From a bacterium (GTDB lineage Bacteria; Myxococcota; UBA727; JAUIJE01), in the NCBI GenBank assembly GCA_030431455.1, contig JAUIJE010000002.1, forward strand, positions 691,294 to 755,293: a stretch of DNA of 64,000 nt, given 5' to 3'. Made by a program: the position numbers and the translations under genes. Positions 2,754-63,311 of the stretch are shown piece by piece. The notes beneath the pieces were generated by a model. The model had not been told where the DNA came from and made no database searches. It saw only the letters and a program-made list of their open reading frames with translations. Every line of letters begins with the position of its first letter. The first letter of the stretch is position 1.

Positions 2754-3037
2754 CAGGTCGATTCCTTAAACAAGGCGCACAAAGGCGCAGCTGAGGGACA
2801 GATCCCTATCAGCTGGGGCGCGCCGATCAAGAGCATTCGGCGCCGCCGGGCGAGGACGGTATGTGCGCGATCAAGACTTCTCTGCTACTTTTTATATAGT
2901 TCAGCTCAAGTAGTATGGTGTAGTCACTTATCCTACCTGTCGTACCGTGTCGCCCTATTGCACAGTGGTTGTCGTGGGTTTAGGTACTCCACAGTCGGTC
3001 CTGATCTGCGCTGAACAATTTAGGTGAGGTTTGTCAC

Positions 3038-4741
3038 ATGCGTCTTCCCCGCTTGCTCAAGATGACCAGCTTTGGGGTGCTGATGTTTGGCCTGGGGTGC
3101 CAGCAGTTCTGCCCAGATGAGCCCATCGCGCGCGTCGCGCCCAAGCTCACCATCGGCGACCCGTTCGATGCCGAGGCGACGGTGTGCAACCCCGACGACC
3201 GCTTCACCGAATGCGCCTACAACTTCGGTGAGGTCAACGTCGGTGAAGGCCGCTTCCTCAAAGTCGTCCTCGAGAACCGCACCCAGGTCAAGCTGCTCGT
3301 CGACACCATCGAGGTCGAAGGCGACCCCGCGTTCAGCCTCGAGGGCAACCCCTTCGCCGGCGAGGACGTGATCACCATCGAGACCAACTCCACCACCAAG
3401 GTTGAGGAAGGGACCCTCTCGCCCACCATCATCACCGTGCGCTACGTGCCCGTGGTCGAGGGCGAAGGCCAACAAGCCACGCTCAAGATCTGGTCGGACG
3501 CGGTCAACTTCGAAGACCCCGACAACCAAGGCACCTACTTCCCCCTCGAGATCAAACTCACCGGCACCGGCATCGACAACGGCCGCCCGGAAGTGGTCGT
3601 CGAGCCCGCGGAGTGTGACTTCGGCGAGGTCGGCCTCGCGGCCAAAGCCTACTGCGACATCTCGGTGAAGAACGTCGGCGCGCGCGACCTGCAAATCACC
3701 GGGGTCGACTTCCTCGACGCCACCACCTTCCCCTCGGTGTTCAACGCCGAGACCATCGTGCCCATCCCGTCCTTCATCGCGCCCGGCACCGCGCTGTCGA
3801 TTCGCTTCTCCGCGACCCCGTCGTCGCCCCAGCTGCAGCGCAATGACTTTGTGCTCAGCACCAACGACCCGCTCAAGCCCGAGGTCACGGTGCCGCTCAA
3901 AGTGCTCGGGGCCGAAGCCCCCACCGCCATCGCCCGGGTGCTCGCCATCAACAACGTGCCCAACAACCAAGCCACCCCCGACATCCGTCCCCTCGACGAC
4001 GTGGTGCTCACCGGGGAGGATTCCGTCCCGGCCCAGGTCAACGGCTCCATCGTGACCTACAGCTGGAGCATCGAGGCGCAGCCGCAACAATCCACCGTCA
4101 TCCTCTCGAGCCCGGACGCCATGACCACCGGCTTCGAGTTCAACAGTGCCCAAGGCATCGTCTCCGGCCTCGACGTCGCCGGGGAGTACGTGGTGCGCCT
4201 CACCGTGACCGACGACAGCGGCTTGACCTCGACCAACGATGCCCGGGTCAACCTCAACGCGGTGCCCTCCGAGGCCCTCCACATCGAGTTGACCTGGGAG
4301 TCGCCCAACTGGGACCTCGACCTGCACATGGTCAAGGACGGCGCCGCCTACTGCTCGACCAGCAGCTGCTACTACGCCAACTGCAAACCCGGCGCGGCCG
4401 GCTATCCCGAATGGGACGGGGTCGGGGGCCGCGGGGGCGGCGACCCCGTGCTCGACATCGACGACCTCAACGGCTACGGCCCCGAGAACATCAACATCGA
4501 TGAGCCGGAAGAAGGCGTGTACCGGGCCGCGGTGCACACGTTCTCCGCCGGTCTCAACGAAGACGTGGGTGTGACCCTCAAGGTGTACGTCAACGGCGCG
4601 CTCGCCTACGACGACTACCGCATCATGGGCGACGGCGGCGACATGTGGGAAGTGGTGGAGATCAGCTGGGCCAACGGCGTGCCCACGGTGTTCCCCATCA
4701 ACCAGTACGACGGCGCGGGCGGCGGTTGCCCCTCGTTCTGA
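3038..4741 (+). CDS. Lipoprotein with choice-of-anchor D (ASPM/SPD-2/Hydin-type) domains
   Basis: A 567-residue lipoprotein: lipobox LMFGLGC at the end of the signal peptide, then two immunoglobulin-like segments with the NFGEVNVGEGRFLKVVLENR and CDFGEVGLAAKAYCDISVKN type motifs of choice-of-anchor D / Hydin-like domains. A PKD-like segment follows (SIVTYSWSIEAQP, GEYVVRLTVTDDSG), then a C-terminal domain beginning LHIELTWESPNWDLDLHMV, as in myxobacterial surface proteins. The start is ATG 3038 with GAGG upstream. A strong terminator follows directly, so the gene is monocistronic. It is probably surface or periplasmic; partner unknown. Confidence 0.85.
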   Translation: MRLPRLLKMTSFGVLMFGLGCQQFCPDEPIARVAPKLTIGDPFDAEATVCNPDDRFTECAYNFGEVNVGEGRFLKVVLENRTQVKLLVDTIEVEGDPAFSLEGNPFAGEDVITIETNSTTKVEEGTLSPTIITVRYVPVVEGEGQQATLKIWSDAVNFEDPDNQGTYFPLEIKLTGTGIDNGRPEVVVEPAECDFGEVGLAAKAYCDISVKNVGARDLQITGVDFLDATTFPSVFNAETIVPIPSFIAPGTALSIRFSATPSSPQLQRNDFVLSTNDPLKPEVTVPLKVLGAEAPTAIARVLAINNVPNNQATPDIRPLDDVVLTGEDSVPAQVNGSIVTYSWSIEAQPQQSTVILSSPDAMTTGFEFNSAQGIVSGLDVAGEYVVRLTVTDDSGLTSTNDARVNLNAVPSEALHIELTWESPNWDLDLHMVKDGAAYCSTSSCYYANCKPGAAGYPEWDGVGGRGGGDPVLDIDDLNGYGPENINIDEPEEGVYRAAVHTFSAGLNEDVGVTLKVYVNGALAYDDYRIMGDGGDMWEVVEISWANGVPTVFPINQYDGAGGGCPSF

Positions 4742-15363: not shown

Positions 15364-15957
15364 TCAGCAGCAGGGCGCGTCTTGGCCTTTGGGGGTGCAG
15401 GATGTGAGCTTGCCGCGCGCGTCTTGTTCAAACGCGCAGCAGCCCTCGAGCAGGGCGCGCAGCTTTTTGCGGCCTCGCTGTACGCGGCTTTTGAGCGTCG
15501 AGAGCGGGACGCCCAACCGGGCCGCGGCTTCGCGTTGGGTCAGGCCCTCGAGCTCCACCAGGCGCAGGGCGTCGCGGCTCTCGGCCGGGAGCTGGGCGAT
15601 GAACCAGGGCAGGGTGCGCGCCACCACCGCCCAGGTTTCGTCGTCGACCGCGCCGGTCTCGTGGGCCTCGTCCTCGTCGGACGGGAGGTGGGCGAGGCGC
15701 TGCTCGAGGCGTTGCGCGCTCTGTTCGCTGCGGTGGGCGTCCACGATCAGCCGGCGCACGATTTGGTAGAGCCAGGCCCGCGGGTTGTCCGGCACCGTGC
15801 CGTCAGCGAGCGCGCGGTGGGCCCGCAAAAACGCGGTCTGCACCAGGTCCTGGGCCGCGGCCGCGGGCAGGCCACGGCTCTTGGCAAAGCGCACGAGCTC
15901 GTCGGAAAAGCGTCGCCACAGGGTGCTCACATCGAGGGTCGGCGCGTCGCCATCCAT
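15364..15957 (-). CDS. ECF sigma factor with Cys-rich C-terminal tail (CorE/SigZ-like)
   Basis: A 197-residue sigma factor: region 2 (RFAKSRGLPAAAAQDLVQTA, AFLRAHRALADG, PRAWLYQIVRRLIVDAHRSE) and region 4 (LPAESRDALRLVELEGLTQR, EAAARLGVPLSTLKSRVQRG). After region 4 comes a tail of about 30 residues with five cysteines: GCCAFEQDARGK, then TSC, and PCC at the end. Such Cys-rich tails mark CorE-type ECF sigma factors, which sense metals directly without an anti-sigma partner; none is encoded here. I choose ATG 15957 because AGGAGG lies just upstream; ATG 16002 would start inside the palindromic promoter. Divergent to arsI, which it probably controls together with itself. Confidence 0.9.
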   Translation of the reverse strand: MDGDAPTLDVSTLWRRFSDELVRFAKSRGLPAAAAQDLVQTAFLRAHRALADGTVPDNPRAWLYQIVRRLIVDAHRSEQSAQRLEQRLAHLPSDEDEAHETGAVDDETWAVVARTLPWFIAQLPAESRDALRLVELEGLTQREAAARLGVPLSTLKSRVQRGRKKLRALLEGCCAFEQDARGKLTSCTPKGQDAPCC

Positions 15958-15971
15958 GCGTCCTCCTGCCC

Positions 15972-16043
15972 AGAAGACGGACGCGGTCGCAAAGGGACGC
16001 ACCTAGATGTGGGTGCGTCCCCGCGCGGGTGGGTCCGTCTTCT
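15972..16043. promoter_or_regulatory. Symmetric divergent promoter/operator between the ECF sigma gene and arsI
   Basis: Two nested inverted repeats share one centre (16007/16008). The inner arms are GGGACGCACC (15994-16003) and GGTGCGTCCC (16012-16021); the outer arms are AGAAGACGGAC (15972-15982) and GTCCGTCTTCT (16033-16043), with exactly 11 bp between inner and outer arm on each side. Read outward, each strand carries GGTGCGTCCC-N11-GTCCGTCTTC, in the right place for a -35/-10 pair with an ECF-like CGTC core. It lies upstream of the start codon of each gene. Assigning the CorE-like sigma to it is an inference; a repressor operator is the alternative. Confidence 0.75.
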
Positions 16044-16067
16044 TCATACCAACCCACAGGAGAATCC

Positions 16068-16538
16068 ATGCGGTTTCACACCAATCTGCCCGTGCACGAC
16101 ATCGAGCGAACCATCGCGTTTTATCGCGTGCTGTTCGACACTGAGCCGGTCAAGGTCAAGAGCGACTACGCGAAGTTTTTGCCCCCGGGCCTCGACCTCA
16201 ACATCTCGTTTCACCAGAGCGCCAACGGCCCGGGGCACTTGGCCGACCTGCACCTCGGGGTCGAGCTTCCGGACCAGGCCGCGGTGGACCAAGCCCACCG
16301 GCGGCTGGCCGACGCCGGTCTCATCACCATCGAGCGGGAGACCGCGATCTGTTGCTACGCCAACCAAGACAAGTTCTGGGTGAGCGACCCCAATGGATAT
16401 GCATGGGAGCTGTACACCCTGCTCGAAGACACCGAGCAGAAGATCGAACCATCCTCCTGCTGCGCCCCCGAACCGGCCGCGGCCGGGGTCGTCGACGACA
16501 GGGCGGCCAAGACAGACTCCGCGTCCTGTTGTGGGTGA
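16068..16538 (+). CDS. arsI: ArsI/CadI-family C-As lyase
   Basis: A 156-residue member of the vicinal-oxygen-chelate (glyoxalase-fold) superfamily. It has MRFHTNLPVHDIERTIAFY at the start, HLADLHLGVEL, the vicinal cysteines C95-C96 in ICCYANQDKFWV and SDPNGYAWELYTLL. This is the ArsI/CadI pattern: Fe(II)-dependent cleavage of the carbon-arsenic bond of trivalent organoarsenicals, the cysteine pair binding As(III). Two more Cys pairs sit near the C-end (SSCCAPE, ASCCG), as in many ArsI/CadI proteins. AGGAG precedes ATG 16068. Expression is probably driven by the ECF sigma factor encoded divergently. Confidence 0.93.
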   Translation: MRFHTNLPVHDIERTIAFYRVLFDTEPVKVKSDYAKFLPPGLDLNISFHQSANGPGHLADLHLGVELPDQAAVDQAHRRLADAGLITIERETAICCYANQDKFWVSDPNGYAWELYTLLEDTEQKIEPSSCCAPEPAAAGVVDDRAAKTDSASCCG

Positions 16539-18499: not shown

Positions 18500-18941
18500 T
18501 CCGCGTCGCGCCCGGCGCCGGCGCCCCCGCGGCTACCTGCTGCTGGAGACCCTCGTGGCCGGCGGCTTGGCCGCCACCGTGCTGGTCGGCACCTTGGTGG
18601 CCGCGGTGCAGATGCGCAACGAAAGTGTGCTCGCGGCCAAGAAGGGACTCGCCTCCAGCCTGGCCGGTCGCCGACTCTCCCAGGCGGGCGCCATCGGCTA
18701 CCCCGCGATCAACGCCAACAACACCATCTTCTCCACCAACGACGCCGCCGACAGCAAGAAGTACGAAAACGGCACCGAATACACCGTGGCCACCAGCGCC
18801 GCGTGCGGGGTTCCCGCCACCACCATCGACACCGAGACCATCAACGTCGGTGTGTGCACCGTGACCGTGACCGTCACGTTTGAGCACATGGGCAACAGCA
18901 TTGTACGGACCGACCAGCTTCGGCTGTACGACCCGGCGTGA
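18483..18941 (+). CDS. Minor pilin, PilV/GspI-like
   Basis: A 152-residue protein with an Arg-rich leader (RRARRRRPRG) followed by YLLLETLVAGGLAATVLVG. The cut should fall after Gly, with Tyr instead of the usual Phe/Met at +1 and Glu at +5. Place and size fit the PilV/GspI minor pilin. It overlaps the upstream gene by 17 bp and the GTGA before the next gene, so translation is coupled along the operon. Confidence 0.85.
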   Translation: MPVRPDPRRARRRRPRGYLLLETLVAGGLAATVLVGTLVAAVQMRNESVLAAKKGLASSLAGRRLSQAGAIGYPAINANNTIFSTNDAADSKKYENGTEYTVATSAACGVPATTIDTETINVGVCTVTVTVTFEHMGNSIVRTDQLRLYDPA

Positions 18942-18952
18942 GAGGAGACGAC

Positions 18953-20185
18953 GTGCAACGGGCCCGAGGCTTTTCTCTGATCGAAATTTTGGTCGCGCTG
19001 ACCATGAGCGTCGTCGTCATCGGGGTCACGATGTCGGTGCTGCAGCGCACGTTCCGCGCCACCAGCCGGGAGCGTGCCCGCAGCTCGCTCGCGCGGGAAG
19101 CGCAGTTCATCCACCTCGCGCTGCAACGCACGCTGGTGGCGATGGGCACGGGGGTGCCGCGCGGCTCGCGCATTCACACCACCGACAACACCGAGATCGA
19201 CACGTCGGTGCTGATCGCGGCCCCCAAGGCGGTGGGCATCCTCGGTGACCTCCCGCGTCCCCACGCCCAGTACAACACCTTCGGTTGGCTCCACACCGAG
19301 GAGGGCGGCGACCGCCGCCACATCGCGTGGCACACGGAGAACAACGGCGCGTGCGTGCCCGGCGCCGACATCGTGCCCGTGGCCGGGGGCGGCTGCGACG
19401 CCGAGGACTTCAGCACCTTCTTTCCTGGCGACGGGGGCGGCAAGTGCGACTCCAACGGCGAGGAGGACTCGCGGCTGTGCGCTTGGGGCGTGCGGCGGCT
19501 CGAGCCCAACGACCACTTCTTGATCACCGCGGGCAACGGGGCCTGGACGTGGGCCGAGTTCGACTACGCAGGCATCGACCTTGTCAATGGCACTGCGTTC
19601 ATCGAGCTCACCAGTCCCTACAGCGACACCGCCAATGATTGGCCCAACGACGACGGCAACGCCGGCACCAACCTGACCATGCCCGCGAGCGGGGGGGGCG
19701 CCGGGTTCGTCACCACCTTGGACCGCATCTTCTTCGAGATCAGCGGCACCGACCTGCTCCGCACCCAGTGCTGGGGGGACCCGGACATCAACGACGCCAA
19801 CTGGCCGCCGTTGGCCGACACCGGGTCGCTGCCCTCGGGGCTGACCTTGACCGCGGCGAGCAACTTCGACGGGACCAACCACGAGTGCACCCCCGCCGAG
19901 GCGCTCTCGCACCACGTGGTGGATGGCGCCTCGACGTTCACCTTCTTCGACGACCAGAACGTGGCCACCACCAACAAAGACGAGGTGCGCCGCGTCGACT
20001 ACTACATTCTGTTGCAGTCCGAGCCCACCGGTTTTGGCGACATCGTCCAATACCCCGTCGTGGGCAGCGTCGGCTTCCGCAACATCGGAATGGCCACCAC
20101 CACCACCGCCCCGGGGACCGGCACCGACACCGGCGGCACCCCGCCCACCGACGGGGGCGGACCCCCGCCGCCGAGCGACGACTGA
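18953..20185 (+). CDS. Minor pilin, PilW/GspJ-like
   Basis: A 410-residue protein with leader MQRARG and FSLIEILVALTMSVVVIGVT (Glu at +5). It is longer than usual PilW/GspJ (about 200-350 residues), with a mature part rich in Asp, Gly and Thr and a Pro/Gly/Thr-rich end. AGGAG at 18943-18947 favours GTG 18953; GTG 18938 overlaps the previous stop. Contains AATGGCACT at 19586-19594 within the coding sequence. Confidence 0.88.
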   Translation: MQRARGFSLIEILVALTMSVVVIGVTMSVLQRTFRATSRERARSSLAREAQFIHLALQRTLVAMGTGVPRGSRIHTTDNTEIDTSVLIAAPKAVGILGDLPRPHAQYNTFGWLHTEEGGDRRHIAWHTENNGACVPGADIVPVAGGGCDAEDFSTFFPGDGGGKCDSNGEEDSRLCAWGVRRLEPNDHFLITAGNGAWTWAEFDYAGIDLVNGTAFIELTSPYSDTANDWPNDDGNAGTNLTMPASGGGAGFVTTLDRIFFEISGTDLLRTQCWGDPDINDANWPPLADTGSLPSGLTLTAASNFDGTNHECTPAEALSHHVVDGASTFTFFDDQNVATTNKDEVRRVDYYILLQSEPTGFGDIVQYPVVGSVGFRNIGMATTTTAPGTGTDTGGTPPTDGGGPPPPSDD

Positions 20186-20197
20186 TCGAGGTTGCCC

Positions 20198-22864
20198 ATG
20201 ACAACAAAAGCCCGTCGAAAAAAACCGACGAACCCCCGTGGATTCGTCATGCTCATCGTCGCCGCGGTGCTGACCGCCCTGGTCGCGCTGGTCCTCGTGC
20301 AAACGCAGGTCTCGGTGTCCGAGCGCCGCACCACCGCCACGGTGGACCGGGACTCCCACGCCCGGGCGATCTCCGAGAGCTGCCTGCAGCGGTTGCTGCA
20401 ACACGCGCGGTCCTACGCCAACATCGCCACCGTGCAGGACCTCGACCGGCTGCTCGACCCCGACGGGACCCTCAACGGCAATGAGTTTTTGCCCACCTTC
20501 GGCGTGGGGGGCGAGACCACCGTGCACGTGCCCCCGTCGGCGGCGGACATCATGCACCAGTACACCCTCATCCCCATGGATGGCGGGGCTTGCTTGGCAC
20601 GATATGACGACAACGCCGACAACTACCGCAACCTGGCCAGCGGCATCGAGACCAACTCCAACTTCACCGGGACGGAGAGCGGCGGCGGCGACGAGCCCCG
20701 GCTCGACACCGACCGGTCCTTGGTCCTGACCGCCATCGGCATCTACCCCTACAACGGCCCGGCCACCACCGCCTACGAGCGTGCCTCCGCGCGGGTGACC
20801 ACCCGGGGCATGTTGATCACCCAGATCCAGGGCACGTCCGACGAGCCCACCATCATGCTCACCGGTGACCTCGACGTCGCCGGCTTCGGCGACGGGGGCG
20901 ACAACCGTTTCCATGTCTGCGGCAACGGCGGCATCAACGTCGACGGGCACGTGGGCAACCGCGACCGCTGCATCTGCGGGCCGCAGGTCCTCGACAACGC
21001 GAGCATCGACTATCCGGACTGCGCCGGGGACAACCTGTGCGACGACCCGGTGGGCGGACCCAGCGGCAACACCGGTTGGTTGTGCGCGTCGACGACGCCC
21101 ATCAGCCCCGACACCACCGGCCTGGCCGCGGATTTGGATGGGCCCATCGACGCCACCTTGATGAACTACAGCCTGTCCACCGGCCCGACGAATCCCTATG
21201 GCCCGCGCCAGTTCAGTTGGGCGCGCAGCCGGCCGACCTGGGGCTATTCCCCCAGCGACCCGACCAAGCACGCCCACGGGGGCTGGGGCAACGGGGGCGC
21301 GGGCAACGCGGGCCCGCCGATGGCGTTCTGGGGACAGTTCACCGACCCCAATCCCACTGGAGGATCCACCAACCGGCTGCCGTTCCAACCTGACGGGCGC
21401 GCCGGCGGCACCCTGGGATCCAACCGCTGCTCCTTCTACCTGCGGCACGCCCCCGTGCGGCTCGACCCCCCCGACTGGATTCCCGCCCAAACCCGCGAGG
21501 AGGGCGCGTGGGTGTACTATTGGGACTACCGGGACACCAACCCCTTCAACACGCTGACCACCGATGTTCGCTTCAACAGCGGGCCGTCCACCACGGAGGT
21601 GGTGGACAGCGCCGGCGTGCCCTTGGCAGCGGCTCCCCCCCAGAACCACAACTGTTCGACCTACAACGGCAACGCGAGCTTCGAGGCGCCCGAGCCGTGC
21701 GACTGGGGTTGGGAAGGCTCCTACGAGACCCGCAAAATCTACTGCACCGGCAAACAATCGCTGTGCTGGAAGCCCATCGCCCGCATGGACAACTGGGAGG
21801 AGAACACCAACGTCTTCTCGTCGAACGAGCAAGAGACGTCCAAGGTGGTCAGCGGGAAAGAATACTTCGTGATCCAGAACGACAACGACGGGGTGCCCTA
21901 TTCAGCCGCCCCCGCGGTCGACTGGGAGACGATGTGCGGCAACGTGGCCACCCAAGACGGCACCCGGGGCTGGAGCTGGGACGGCTCCCGCTGGCGGTTC
22001 GCCGATGACGACGACGTGCGGCGCGGGGACTGGCCCGACCGCGGGGTGTACTTCATCATCGAGAACAACCCCACGTCGACGTTTACCCGGGCGTACATCG
22101 ACCGGCGGGTGGGCACGCGGAGCCAGCCCCTCCGGGCGGCCTTCTTGACCAAGGGCTCGATTGAGATCCGGGACGAGCTGCACGTCCAGTGCCCGACCTG
22201 CGGGGCCGCCGATGTGAGCAACGTGCAGGCGTGCGCCATGAACAACGACCAACTGGTGAGCAGTGGCTTTGCGCTGATGGCCGGGGGCCATTGCGAGTTC
22301 ACCGGCGATGACACCCAGACCATCATCGGCGACGGCCTGTGCCGCACCATCCTGTCCCGCTCCAGCGACGAGAACAGCTGCTGGGTGGGCGACATGATGA
22401 CGTTCACGTCCCCCAACCCCTGCGCCAACGGCTGCAACAACGGAACGTACGGACACAACCCGCAGTACGGACTGAACTGGTACTGCGGCGTGAACTGGGG
22501 CTACGACGACGACCCCGGCATTTGTCTGCGCGACGAATGGGGCATCTCGGGGGTGATGATCGGCGGCGCCATCGTGATGGACGACGACAACTGGGTGAAG
22601 GGACCGGCGATCATCTCCCACGACGACATCTGGATCGGACGCCGCAACTACATCGAGGCCAACCTCTTGACCTACTACATGGCCAGCGGCGGCGCGTTCA
22701 GCGGGCGCTCGATCAACCTCTACGACCGCGAAAACACCATCAACGGGCGCATCATCGGCGAGTCGCTCCGGGTCAACGGGCGGCGCAACGTGGTTCACCA
22801 CGAGGGGACCAACATCAAGACCGAGGTGAGCGAGCAGTTCATCTGGGTCGACTCCACGTGGTGA
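20198..22864 (+). CDS. Large PilX/GspK-like minor pilin with extended C-terminal domain
   Basis: An 888-residue protein whose N-terminus is a basic leader (KARRKKPTNPRG) followed by FVMLIVAAVLTALVALVLV. Position +5 is Ile, not Glu; lack of Glu5 is typical for PilX/GspK, which caps the growing tip. The mature part is far larger than usual (PilX about 200 residues), Cys-rich (over 20 cysteines), and ends in a beta-helix-like run (GISGVMIGGAIVMDDDNWV, GPAIISHDDIWIGRRNYIEA). It may be an adhesin domain carried on the pilus tip. Start ATG 20198 is preceded by GAGG. Confidence 0.85.
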   Translation: MTTKARRKKPTNPRGFVMLIVAAVLTALVALVLVQTQVSVSERRTTATVDRDSHARAISESCLQRLLQHARSYANIATVQDLDRLLDPDGTLNGNEFLPTFGVGGETTVHVPPSAADIMHQYTLIPMDGGACLARYDDNADNYRNLASGIETNSNFTGTESGGGDEPRLDTDRSLVLTAIGIYPYNGPATTAYERASARVTTRGMLITQIQGTSDEPTIMLTGDLDVAGFGDGGDNRFHVCGNGGINVDGHVGNRDRCICGPQVLDNASIDYPDCAGDNLCDDPVGGPSGNTGWLCASTTPISPDTTGLAADLDGPIDATLMNYSLSTGPTNPYGPRQFSWARSRPTWGYSPSDPTKHAHGGWGNGGAGNAGPPMAFWGQFTDPNPTGGSTNRLPFQPDGRAGGTLGSNRCSFYLRHAPVRLDPPDWIPAQTREEGAWVYYWDYRDTNPFNTLTTDVRFNSGPSTTEVVDSAGVPLAAAPPQNHNCSTYNGNASFEAPEPCDWGWEGSYETRKIYCTGKQSLCWKPIARMDNWEENTNVFSSNEQETSKVVSGKEYFVIQNDNDGVPYSAAPAVDWETMCGNVATQDGTRGWSWDGSRWRFADDDDVRRGDWPDRGVYFIIENNPTSTFTRAYIDRRVGTRSQPLRAAFLTKGSIEIRDELHVQCPTCGAADVSNVQACAMNNDQLVSSGFALMAGGHCEFTGDDTQTIIGDGLCRTILSRSSDENSCWVGDMMTFTSPNPCANGCNNGTYGHNPQYGLNWYCGVNWGYDDDPGICLRDEWGISGVMIGGAIVMDDDNWVKGPAIISHDDIWIGRRNYIEANLLTYYMASGGAFSGRSINLYDRENTINGRIIGESLRVNGRRNVVHHEGTNIKTEVSEQFIWVDSTW

Positions 22865-55357: not shown

Positions 55358-55407
55358 CTGCTTTTACATGGAACAACCGCGCACATCAGGGCGATGGAGG
55401 TTTGACG

Positions 55408-56064
55408 ATGCTGACCGCGATGCTCAAGACGTTCACCCAGGGGGGCAAAGACCGGGCGTTCCAGAGCGAAGCCATGCCCCACATGAACGCGCTGTTCGCC
55501 GCCGCCCTGCGCCTCACCCGCAACGAGAGCGACGCCGAAGACCTCGTGCAAGAGACCTTCTTCAAGGCCTACCGCGCGTGGGAGCAGTTCGAGTCCGGGA
55601 CCAACTGCAAAGCCTGGCTCTTCCGCATCCAGACCAACACCTTCATCAACAAGTACCGCCGCAAGGTCAAAGAGCGCGAAATCCTCGAGGGCAATGAGCG
55701 CATCGCGGCCGAGCACTACTTCGTGCACCCCCAATCGAAGAACCACACCCTCAACCCCGAAAAACACATCACCGACCAGTTCATGAGCGACGAGGTGGTC
55801 AAGGCCCTCGCCGAGGTGCCCACCGACTTCCGCACCGTGGTGATGCTCGCCGACGTCGAGGGCTTTGCCTACAAGGACGTCGCGGACATGGTCGGCATCC
55901 CCGTCGGCACGGTGATGAGCCGCCTGTTCCGGGGCCGCCGCATCCTGCAGGAACATTTGTTCGAGTACGCGCAAAAAGAGGGCCTGCTCAAGGCCAAAGG
56001 CGCCGACAACGAGCCCTTGTCCCTCGACGACTACCGCAAGCGGCGGTCGCGCAAAAAAGCCTGA
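55408..56064 (+). CDS. ECF sigma factor (RpoE-like)
   Basis: A 218-residue sigma factor: region 2 (MPHMNALFAAALRLTRNESD, AEDLVQETFFKAYRAWEQFE, AWLFRIQTNTFINKYRRK), a longer than usual linker (residues about 95-130, KNHTLNPEKHITDQF), and region 4 (VPTDFRTVVMLADVEGFAYK, DVADMVGIPVGTVMSRLFRG). A basic C-tail (DYRKRRSRKKA) ends it. ATG 55408 is 7 bp after GGAGG. No anti-sigma gene follows. Its own promoter fits the ECF consensus. Confidence 0.94.
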   Translation: MLTAMLKTFTQGGKDRAFQSEAMPHMNALFAAALRLTRNESDAEDLVQETFFKAYRAWEQFESGTNCKAWLFRIQTNTFINKYRRKVKEREILEGNERIAAEHYFVHPQSKNHTLNPEKHITDQFMSDEVVKALAEVPTDFRTVVMLADVEGFAYKDVADMVGIPVGTVMSRLFRGRRILQEHLFEYAQKEGLLKAKGADNEPLSLDDYRKRRSRKKA

Positions 56065-62918: not shown

Positions 62919-63311
62919 ATGGCCCTGGATGCGTTTCCCCCCGTCGACCCCGCGGCATTGAGCGCGGCGTTCAAGGCCCTGGGGGACGAAAATCGCCTGC
63001 GGGCGTTCGCGCTCATCGCGGCCCGGGGCCGCATCTGCGTCGGCGACTTGGTCACCGTGCTCGACCTGCCGCAGTCCACTGTCTCGCGCCACCTGGCCGC
63101 GCTCCGGCGCACAGGATTGGTGGTCACCGAGCGCGCGGGGACCTGGGTGCACTACGCCCTGGCCGAAAGTCCCCCCATGGCGACGCCGGCCGAAGCAGTG
63201 GCGCGCCTGCTCGAGGGCGCGGATGCGTTCGCCGAGGACCTTTCCCGGGCCGCGTCCTTGGCCGCCGGAGGTGGGTGTTGTCCCCAGCACCCGCCGGCCA
63301 AAGGTGCCTAG
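62919..63311 (+). CDS. arsR: ArsR-family arsenic-responsive repressor
   Basis: A 130-residue winged-helix repressor: [40 protein letters not shown] (recognition helix), [20 protein letters not shown]. It lacks the CVC-D-L cysteine set of the R773-type sensor (only one Cys there); instead it has a Cys pair near the C-end ([10 protein letters not shown]), as in ArsR proteins of the AfArsR type with a C-terminal As(III) site. It should repress itself and the acr3 gene behind it. Confidence 0.93.

Follow-up and report, generated by a model that had tools for sequence, protein, structure and literature searches.

What controls an arsI gene that lies back to back with the gene of an ECF sigma factor? 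The usual teaching is that ArsR represses arsenic operons. In the window, by which we mean the whole 64,000-nucleotide stretch of DNA analysed here, the two genes are divergent with 110 bp between them, and a preliminary description had read the symmetric sequence in this interval as two identical promoters from which the sigma factor would switch on both itself and arsI. The features of the region are listed below.

15364–15957, minus strand: ECF sigma factor gene, SigZ-like, 197-aa product (PF04542 and PF08281 above their cut-offs)
15962–15967, minus strand: Shine-Dalgarno sequence AGGAGG of the sigma gene (from the sequence)
15976–16001, minus strand: predicted sigma promoter; -35 TGCGTC at 16001–15996, 16-nt spacer, -10 CGTC at 15979–15976
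16002–16013, no strand: 12-nt gap between the two -35 elements, of a length that varies among relatives
16014–16039, plus strand: predicted arsI promoter; -35 TGCGTC at 16014–16019, 16-nt spacer, -10 CGTC at 16036–16039
16058–16062, plus strand: Shine-Dalgarno sequence AGGAG of arsI (from the sequence)
16068–16538, plus strand: arsI, ArsI/CadI-family C-As lyase with a VOC fold, 156 aa (NF041414, 127 bits)

Both gene calls of the preliminary description hold at these coordinates, and the start codon of the sigma gene is the ATG at 15957. The arsI product exceeded the curated cut-off of NF041414 (127 versus 116 bits), a single family model common to ArsI and CadI. Its vicinal cysteines lie in a CCYA motif and its C terminus is a Cys-rich tail; in an alignment with the solved ArsI-type chains 5d4f, 5c4p, and 5v0f, the CCYA, H, and WE residues are all conserved. 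Its CCYA, DLHLGVE, and WELY segments match these chains, the first His lying beyond the aligned stretch; the vicinal CC pair is present, as are the metal ligands H and E expected in a VOC fold. Farther along the same strand, ORFs with prepilin-like N termini (GFSLIEILVALTMSVVVIG) cluster at positions 18938–22864 together with one for a long protein that looks secreted, and they probably form a type IV pilus/pseudopilin locus.

Between sigma and arsI, GGTGCGTCCC-N11-GTCCGTCTTC occurs on both strands without a mismatch (15973–16003 minus, 16012–16042 plus), and the identical, outward-reading elements that had been reported with an N11 on each strand are therefore exact and present once per strand. 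No further site with up to three mismatches was found in the window. All 20 box positions are identical between the two strands, and dinucleotide shuffles of the window contained a mean of 0.01 such sites and never two. Across the 7.7-Mb genome, the unmismatched core GTGNGTCC-N12-GTCCGTC is found at the two window sites only. A chance symmetry of two unrelated sequences, which would agree with a central gap of unconserved length, is vanishingly unlikely against these counts and the conservation across phyla described below.

ECF promoters consist of a -35 element, a spacer of ~16 nt, and a CGTC-type -10 element. Judged by its sequence, each half of the element is best described as such a promoter, with a -35 TGCGTC, a 16-nt spacer, and a -10 CGTC. 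The -10 elements lie 18 nt (sigma) and 28 nt (arsI) from the start codons, giving short leaders with good Shine-Dalgarno sequences. The two 32-nt arms (15972–16003 and 16012–16043) are also 78% complementary around an 8-nt centre, as might be expected if the inverted repeat and its loop formed an RNA or DNA hairpin (an attenuator, terminator, or antisense device) and not a promoter pair. Such a hairpin would, however, lie upstream of the inferred leaders and not inside them; only the -35 and -10 blocks are conserved, with a free spacer, and most relatives have single-orientation copies that are unable to form a hairpin at all. We regard this alternative as highly improbable.

Relatives were gathered by similarity of the sigma protein alone, with the promoter not a criterion, and their loci therefore provide an independent test of the promoter prediction. 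TGCGTCY-N15-CGTC occurred 20 times in the 28 nearest loci, compared with zero to two times at each of fourteen other spacings, 0.7 expected from shuffles, and a single occurrence in 52 loci of other ECF sigmas. In 21 of the 28 loci, TGC(G/A)TC-N16-CGTC was located within 300 nt upstream of sigma, arsI, arsM, or arsP (zero to two at other spacings), and in 27 an ars gene was present within ~4 kb on either side of sigma; as the Nitrospira loci are mutually related, these locus counts do not represent independent events. Among the seven loci in which the canonical site is missing, L027 and L037 carry an N17 version and L043 scored 31 bits as AGCATCC. When spaced dyads were sought de novo, without use of the earlier motif, GCGTC-N16-CGTC came out on top (24/42 loci; shuffled maxima 5–8), and the weight matrix reads TGCGTC(C/T)TTTT, a free spacer, and CGTCT. 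The conserved TGCGTC-N16-CGTC thus precedes the sigma's own gene as well as the linked genes, and we infer that the sigma recognizes it. A strong match (30.6) was also seen at L050:5544, in a Rhodoferax locus that had been collected among the more distant ECF relatives.

The preliminary description had set conservation upstream of related sigma/arsI pairs beforehand as a test by which it could be refuted, and had proposed a motif search of the genome and relatives. The prediction survived the former, with both promoters present in L017, and the latter yielded the core unique to the pair and the sites in three quarters of the relative loci; its interpretation of the divergent pair thus appears to be supported.

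The divergent double promoter was found in three loci: the window, L017, and L117. L017 (Nannocystineae) is the nearest relative, with a 50% identical sigma and the same divergent arsI/sigma pair, and L117 is the Rhodococcus opacus plasmid pROB01, where arsI was not found beside the double promoter. The Nitrospira loci are promoter-arsI-sigma operons and the Myxococcales loci promoter-arsM-sigma operons, and in beta- and gammaproteobacteria the promoter stands before an arsP or arsM gene adjoining sigma. A Nonomuraea replicon bears the same promoter as the Rhodococcus plasmid. The linked genes were confirmed as ArsI, ArsM, and the ArsP_1 permease (PF03773, 256 bits), and as ArsH in Klebsiella plasmids. 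Some members of the sigma family (L025, L137–L139) have no ars gene, so that the inducer may not be arsenic everywhere. In these Actinomycetota loci, tiny CC-rich ORFs also follow the promoter, both in Rhodococcus (L117:4194–4370, minus strand, 58 aa, no Pfam family match) and in Nonomuraea (L119, ~2862–2965, plus strand, ~34 aa, where promoter and ORF lie upstream of sigma); the products look like small thiol-rich metalloid-binding peptides.

In the three divergent loci, the gap between the -35 elements is 12 nt (window), 14 nt (L017), and 2 nt (L117), while the geometry of each promoter is fixed. The nested repeats with a common centre that had first drawn attention to the region are therefore present in the window, but their centre is not conserved. 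The mirror symmetry itself is incidental, and the element reads as a promoter pair (-35 TGCGTCCTTTT, -10 CGTC) and not as a palindromic operator. If it were instead the operator of a dimeric repressor (ArsR/SmtB or similar), both genes would be on housekeeping promoters. Most ars genes are ArsR-controlled, the arms are palindromic, and there is an ArsR/SmtB-like gene in the window (62919–63311, plus strand), all of which would suit a repressor; that gene, however, is 46 kb from the sigma/arsI pair, and no arsR lies beside the pair. Before co-directional operons, moreover, the element is a single, oriented, non-palindromic copy with its spacer fixed at 16 nt, the gap between the halves varies where they are divergent, and two arsI genes from sigma-less genomes, one of them beside arsR, lack the element. 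An operator is accordingly improbable. Because most relatives have just one, oriented copy of the element, and because the central gap varies, we rejected both the operator and the hairpin readings.

The strict promoter pattern was scanned over 195 same-phylum genomes without reference to genes and gave two matches. One stands immediately before the gene of another sigma, again SigZ-like and CC-tailed, after which comes arsR (L107/L131); the other is within a coding frame and presumably represents chance. The site was absent from both same-phylum arsI genes found in sigma-less genomes, one of which sits in a conventional arsR-arsI-acr3 cluster. In the window's own genome, the relaxed TGCGTCY-N15-CGTC showed no overall excess, with 9 occurrences against 15 for the reversed control, and a regulon larger than the sigma/arsI pair is thus unproven there. 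Apart from the pair, this genome has seven exact matches, most of them within coding sequence. One of the seven, an exact TGCGTCC-N15-CGTC at G000:C22:142498–142523 (L104:1501–1526), lies 31 nt ahead of an ORF whose product looks like a lipoprotein (MKKTAVLILGALAVSAGCSTT...), and is possibly a third target or a chance match.

The window sigma belongs to the ECF sigma factors (group IV sigma70), scoring above the cut-offs of both PF04542 (sigma2, 50.6 bits) and PF08281 (sigma4, 53.1 bits). It had been called Cys-tailed, correctly: the protein ends in ...GCCAFEQDARGKLTSCTPKGQDAPCC, five Cys fall within its last 24 residues (C174, C175, C188, C196, and C197), and no Cys precedes residue 174. Its AF2 model (mean pLDDT 90) consists of two helical domains and a C-terminal beta hairpin (174–178/184–189); the hairpin, predicted with good confidence, holds C174, C175, and C188, and a CC follows at the extreme end. 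C174 is invariant across 27 aligned relatives and the tail Cys are conserved. Most relatives have a further Cys near the start of sigma4, which is absent from the window sigma and L017, so that any sensing site must differ within the sigma family. The top Foldseek matches were ECF sigmas with low whole-chain TM, reflecting a different domain arrangement. The nearest relatives are myxobacterial, and no relatives at E ≤ 1e-30 were found in 15 other genomes of the same order. A second ECF sigma gene in the window (55402–56064, plus strand) encodes a protein 25% identical to the arsI-linked sigma.

Among known systems, the closest named family is SigZ of Bacillus subtilis (TIGR02959 / NF007215), which matches nearly the whole protein including the tail. 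TIGR02959 was the best NCBIfam model for the window sigma, but at 145.2 bits (144.6 in the genome search) against a cut-off of 168.65 the protein falls outside the SigZ equivalog. A 2023 review lists SigZ as an ECF without a stated function (PMC10141391), and we found no link between SigZ and arsenic. A second comparison is with CorE and CorE2 of Myxococcus xanthus (ECF44, now ECF238), Cys-tailed ECFs that respond to Cu or Cd/Zn (PMC8999054, PMC3107203). They share with the window sigma a Cys-rich C-terminal extension and the lack of a linked anti-sigma, and they control metal-resistance genes, whereas the neighbours of the window sigma are arsenic genes and not Cu/Cd genes. CorE also has a CXC in the sigma2-sigma4 linker, a motif defined in PMC8999054 that is missing from the window sigma and likewise from most of the new ECF238 group (PMC8999054), and a -35 containing AAC (PMC3107203), unlike the window -35, TGCGTCC(TTTT). 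On these two traits we rejected membership in the CorE-like ECF44/ECF238 group; by analogy, the window sigma may nevertheless work like these metal-responsive ECFs.

ArsR-controlled arsI/arsM operons have the same output genes under a repressor. In Klebsiella pneumoniae plasmids both kinds of regulator are found together: the ars cluster arsR-arsH-sigma-arsD contains a SigZ-like sigma, ars-linked as in the window and 34% identical to the window sigma. Between sigma and arsD there is a candidate promoter of relaxed sequence (CGCATCT...CGTT) and unchanged spacing (PWM 13.8, next best 3.5); in L118 (NZ_MW650892.1 38764–47282), sigma occupies 3971–4516 and the candidate CGCATCTTTTT...CGTT follows directly, at 4520. 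DNA related to this sigma was found in 1,221 plasmid records. Its annotation between arsH and arsD varies (sigma-70 family, SigL, or hypothetical), and one transcriptome lists this slot as a hypothetical protein (PMC6286996). Our literature search, with the ECF classification paper outside its scope, found no paper tying an ECF sigma to arsI, arsM, or arsenic regulation, in agreement with the preliminary description, which knew of no ECF regulation of arsI; a group number and predicted promoter for these sigmas may already exist in the ECF classification.

How, then, might the pair operate? We consider it probable that the region is a pair of twin ECF promoters from which an arsenical-sensing sigma switches on itself and arsI. 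In the proposed mechanism, the divergent promoters, each with a -35 TGCGTCC(TTTT), a -10 CGTC(T), and 16 nt from TGCGTC to CGTC, would serve the adjoining ECF sigma, present at a low level before any signal. Binding of MAs(III) or As(III), as a thiophilic trivalent arsenical, to the Cys-rich C-terminal hairpin would render the sigma competent; the sigma would then join RNA polymerase and fire its own promoter (autoamplification) together with that of arsI, and ArsI would cleave the C-As bond of MAs(III). The pair would thus be a local form of a cross-phylum module of a SigZ-like, Cys-tailed ECF sigma and arsenic genes. Self-activation, arsI activation, and metal(loid) sensing are what we infer from sequence, in graded strength: strongly that the window sigma uses both promoters and amplifies itself, moderately that the Cys tail senses a thiophilic metalloid, and weakly to moderately that MAs(III) or As(III) acts as the inducer.

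The signal is the part for which an alternative carries some weight. The same promoters and sigma could respond to another thiophilic metal (Cd, Hg, Cu, or Zn), to a redox change through the Cys tail, or to an unlinked partner. ArsI and CadI do fall under one family model, some members of the sigma family lack ars neighbours, and the studied Cys-tailed ECFs, CorE and CorE2 of Myxococcus, answer to Cu and Cd/Zn (PMC8999054). Yet the neighbours are mostly ars genes, many of them organoarsenical (arsM, arsI, arsP, arsH), and the window ArsI shares its CCYA motif with solved ArsI-type proteins; we consider a non-arsenical signal unlikely, at perhaps one chance in a few. Methylated arsenicals are produced by arsM and acted on by arsI, arsP, and arsH, which makes a trivalent organoarsenical, or arsenicals generally, the leading candidate signal. 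No ArsM above the cut-off was found in the window's own genome, so any MAs(III) would have an external source, and we discarded synthesis by the host itself as an explanation.

Beyond this locus, we lean slightly towards a broader reading, in which a distinct, phylum-spanning group of Cys-tailed ECFs would be dedicated to activating the detoxification of arsenic, mainly of organoarsenicals. Its targets would be arsI, arsM, arsP, arsH, and small CC-rich peptides, as an activating alternative to ArsR repression, and its range would include Myxococcota, Nitrospirota, Pseudomonadota, Actinomycetota, and >1,000 enterobacterial plasmids. The cross-phylum conservation suggests a widespread and apparently undescribed means of activating defences against arsenic. 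If this is true, a sensor-tailed sigma with an unusual -35 box would represent a second logic of arsenic regulation, coupled to methylarsenical genes across several phyla and present also on common Klebsiella plasmids. It would suggest a role for SigZ-like sigmas and would offer a sensor-promoter pair that is portable and clearly marked by its sequence.
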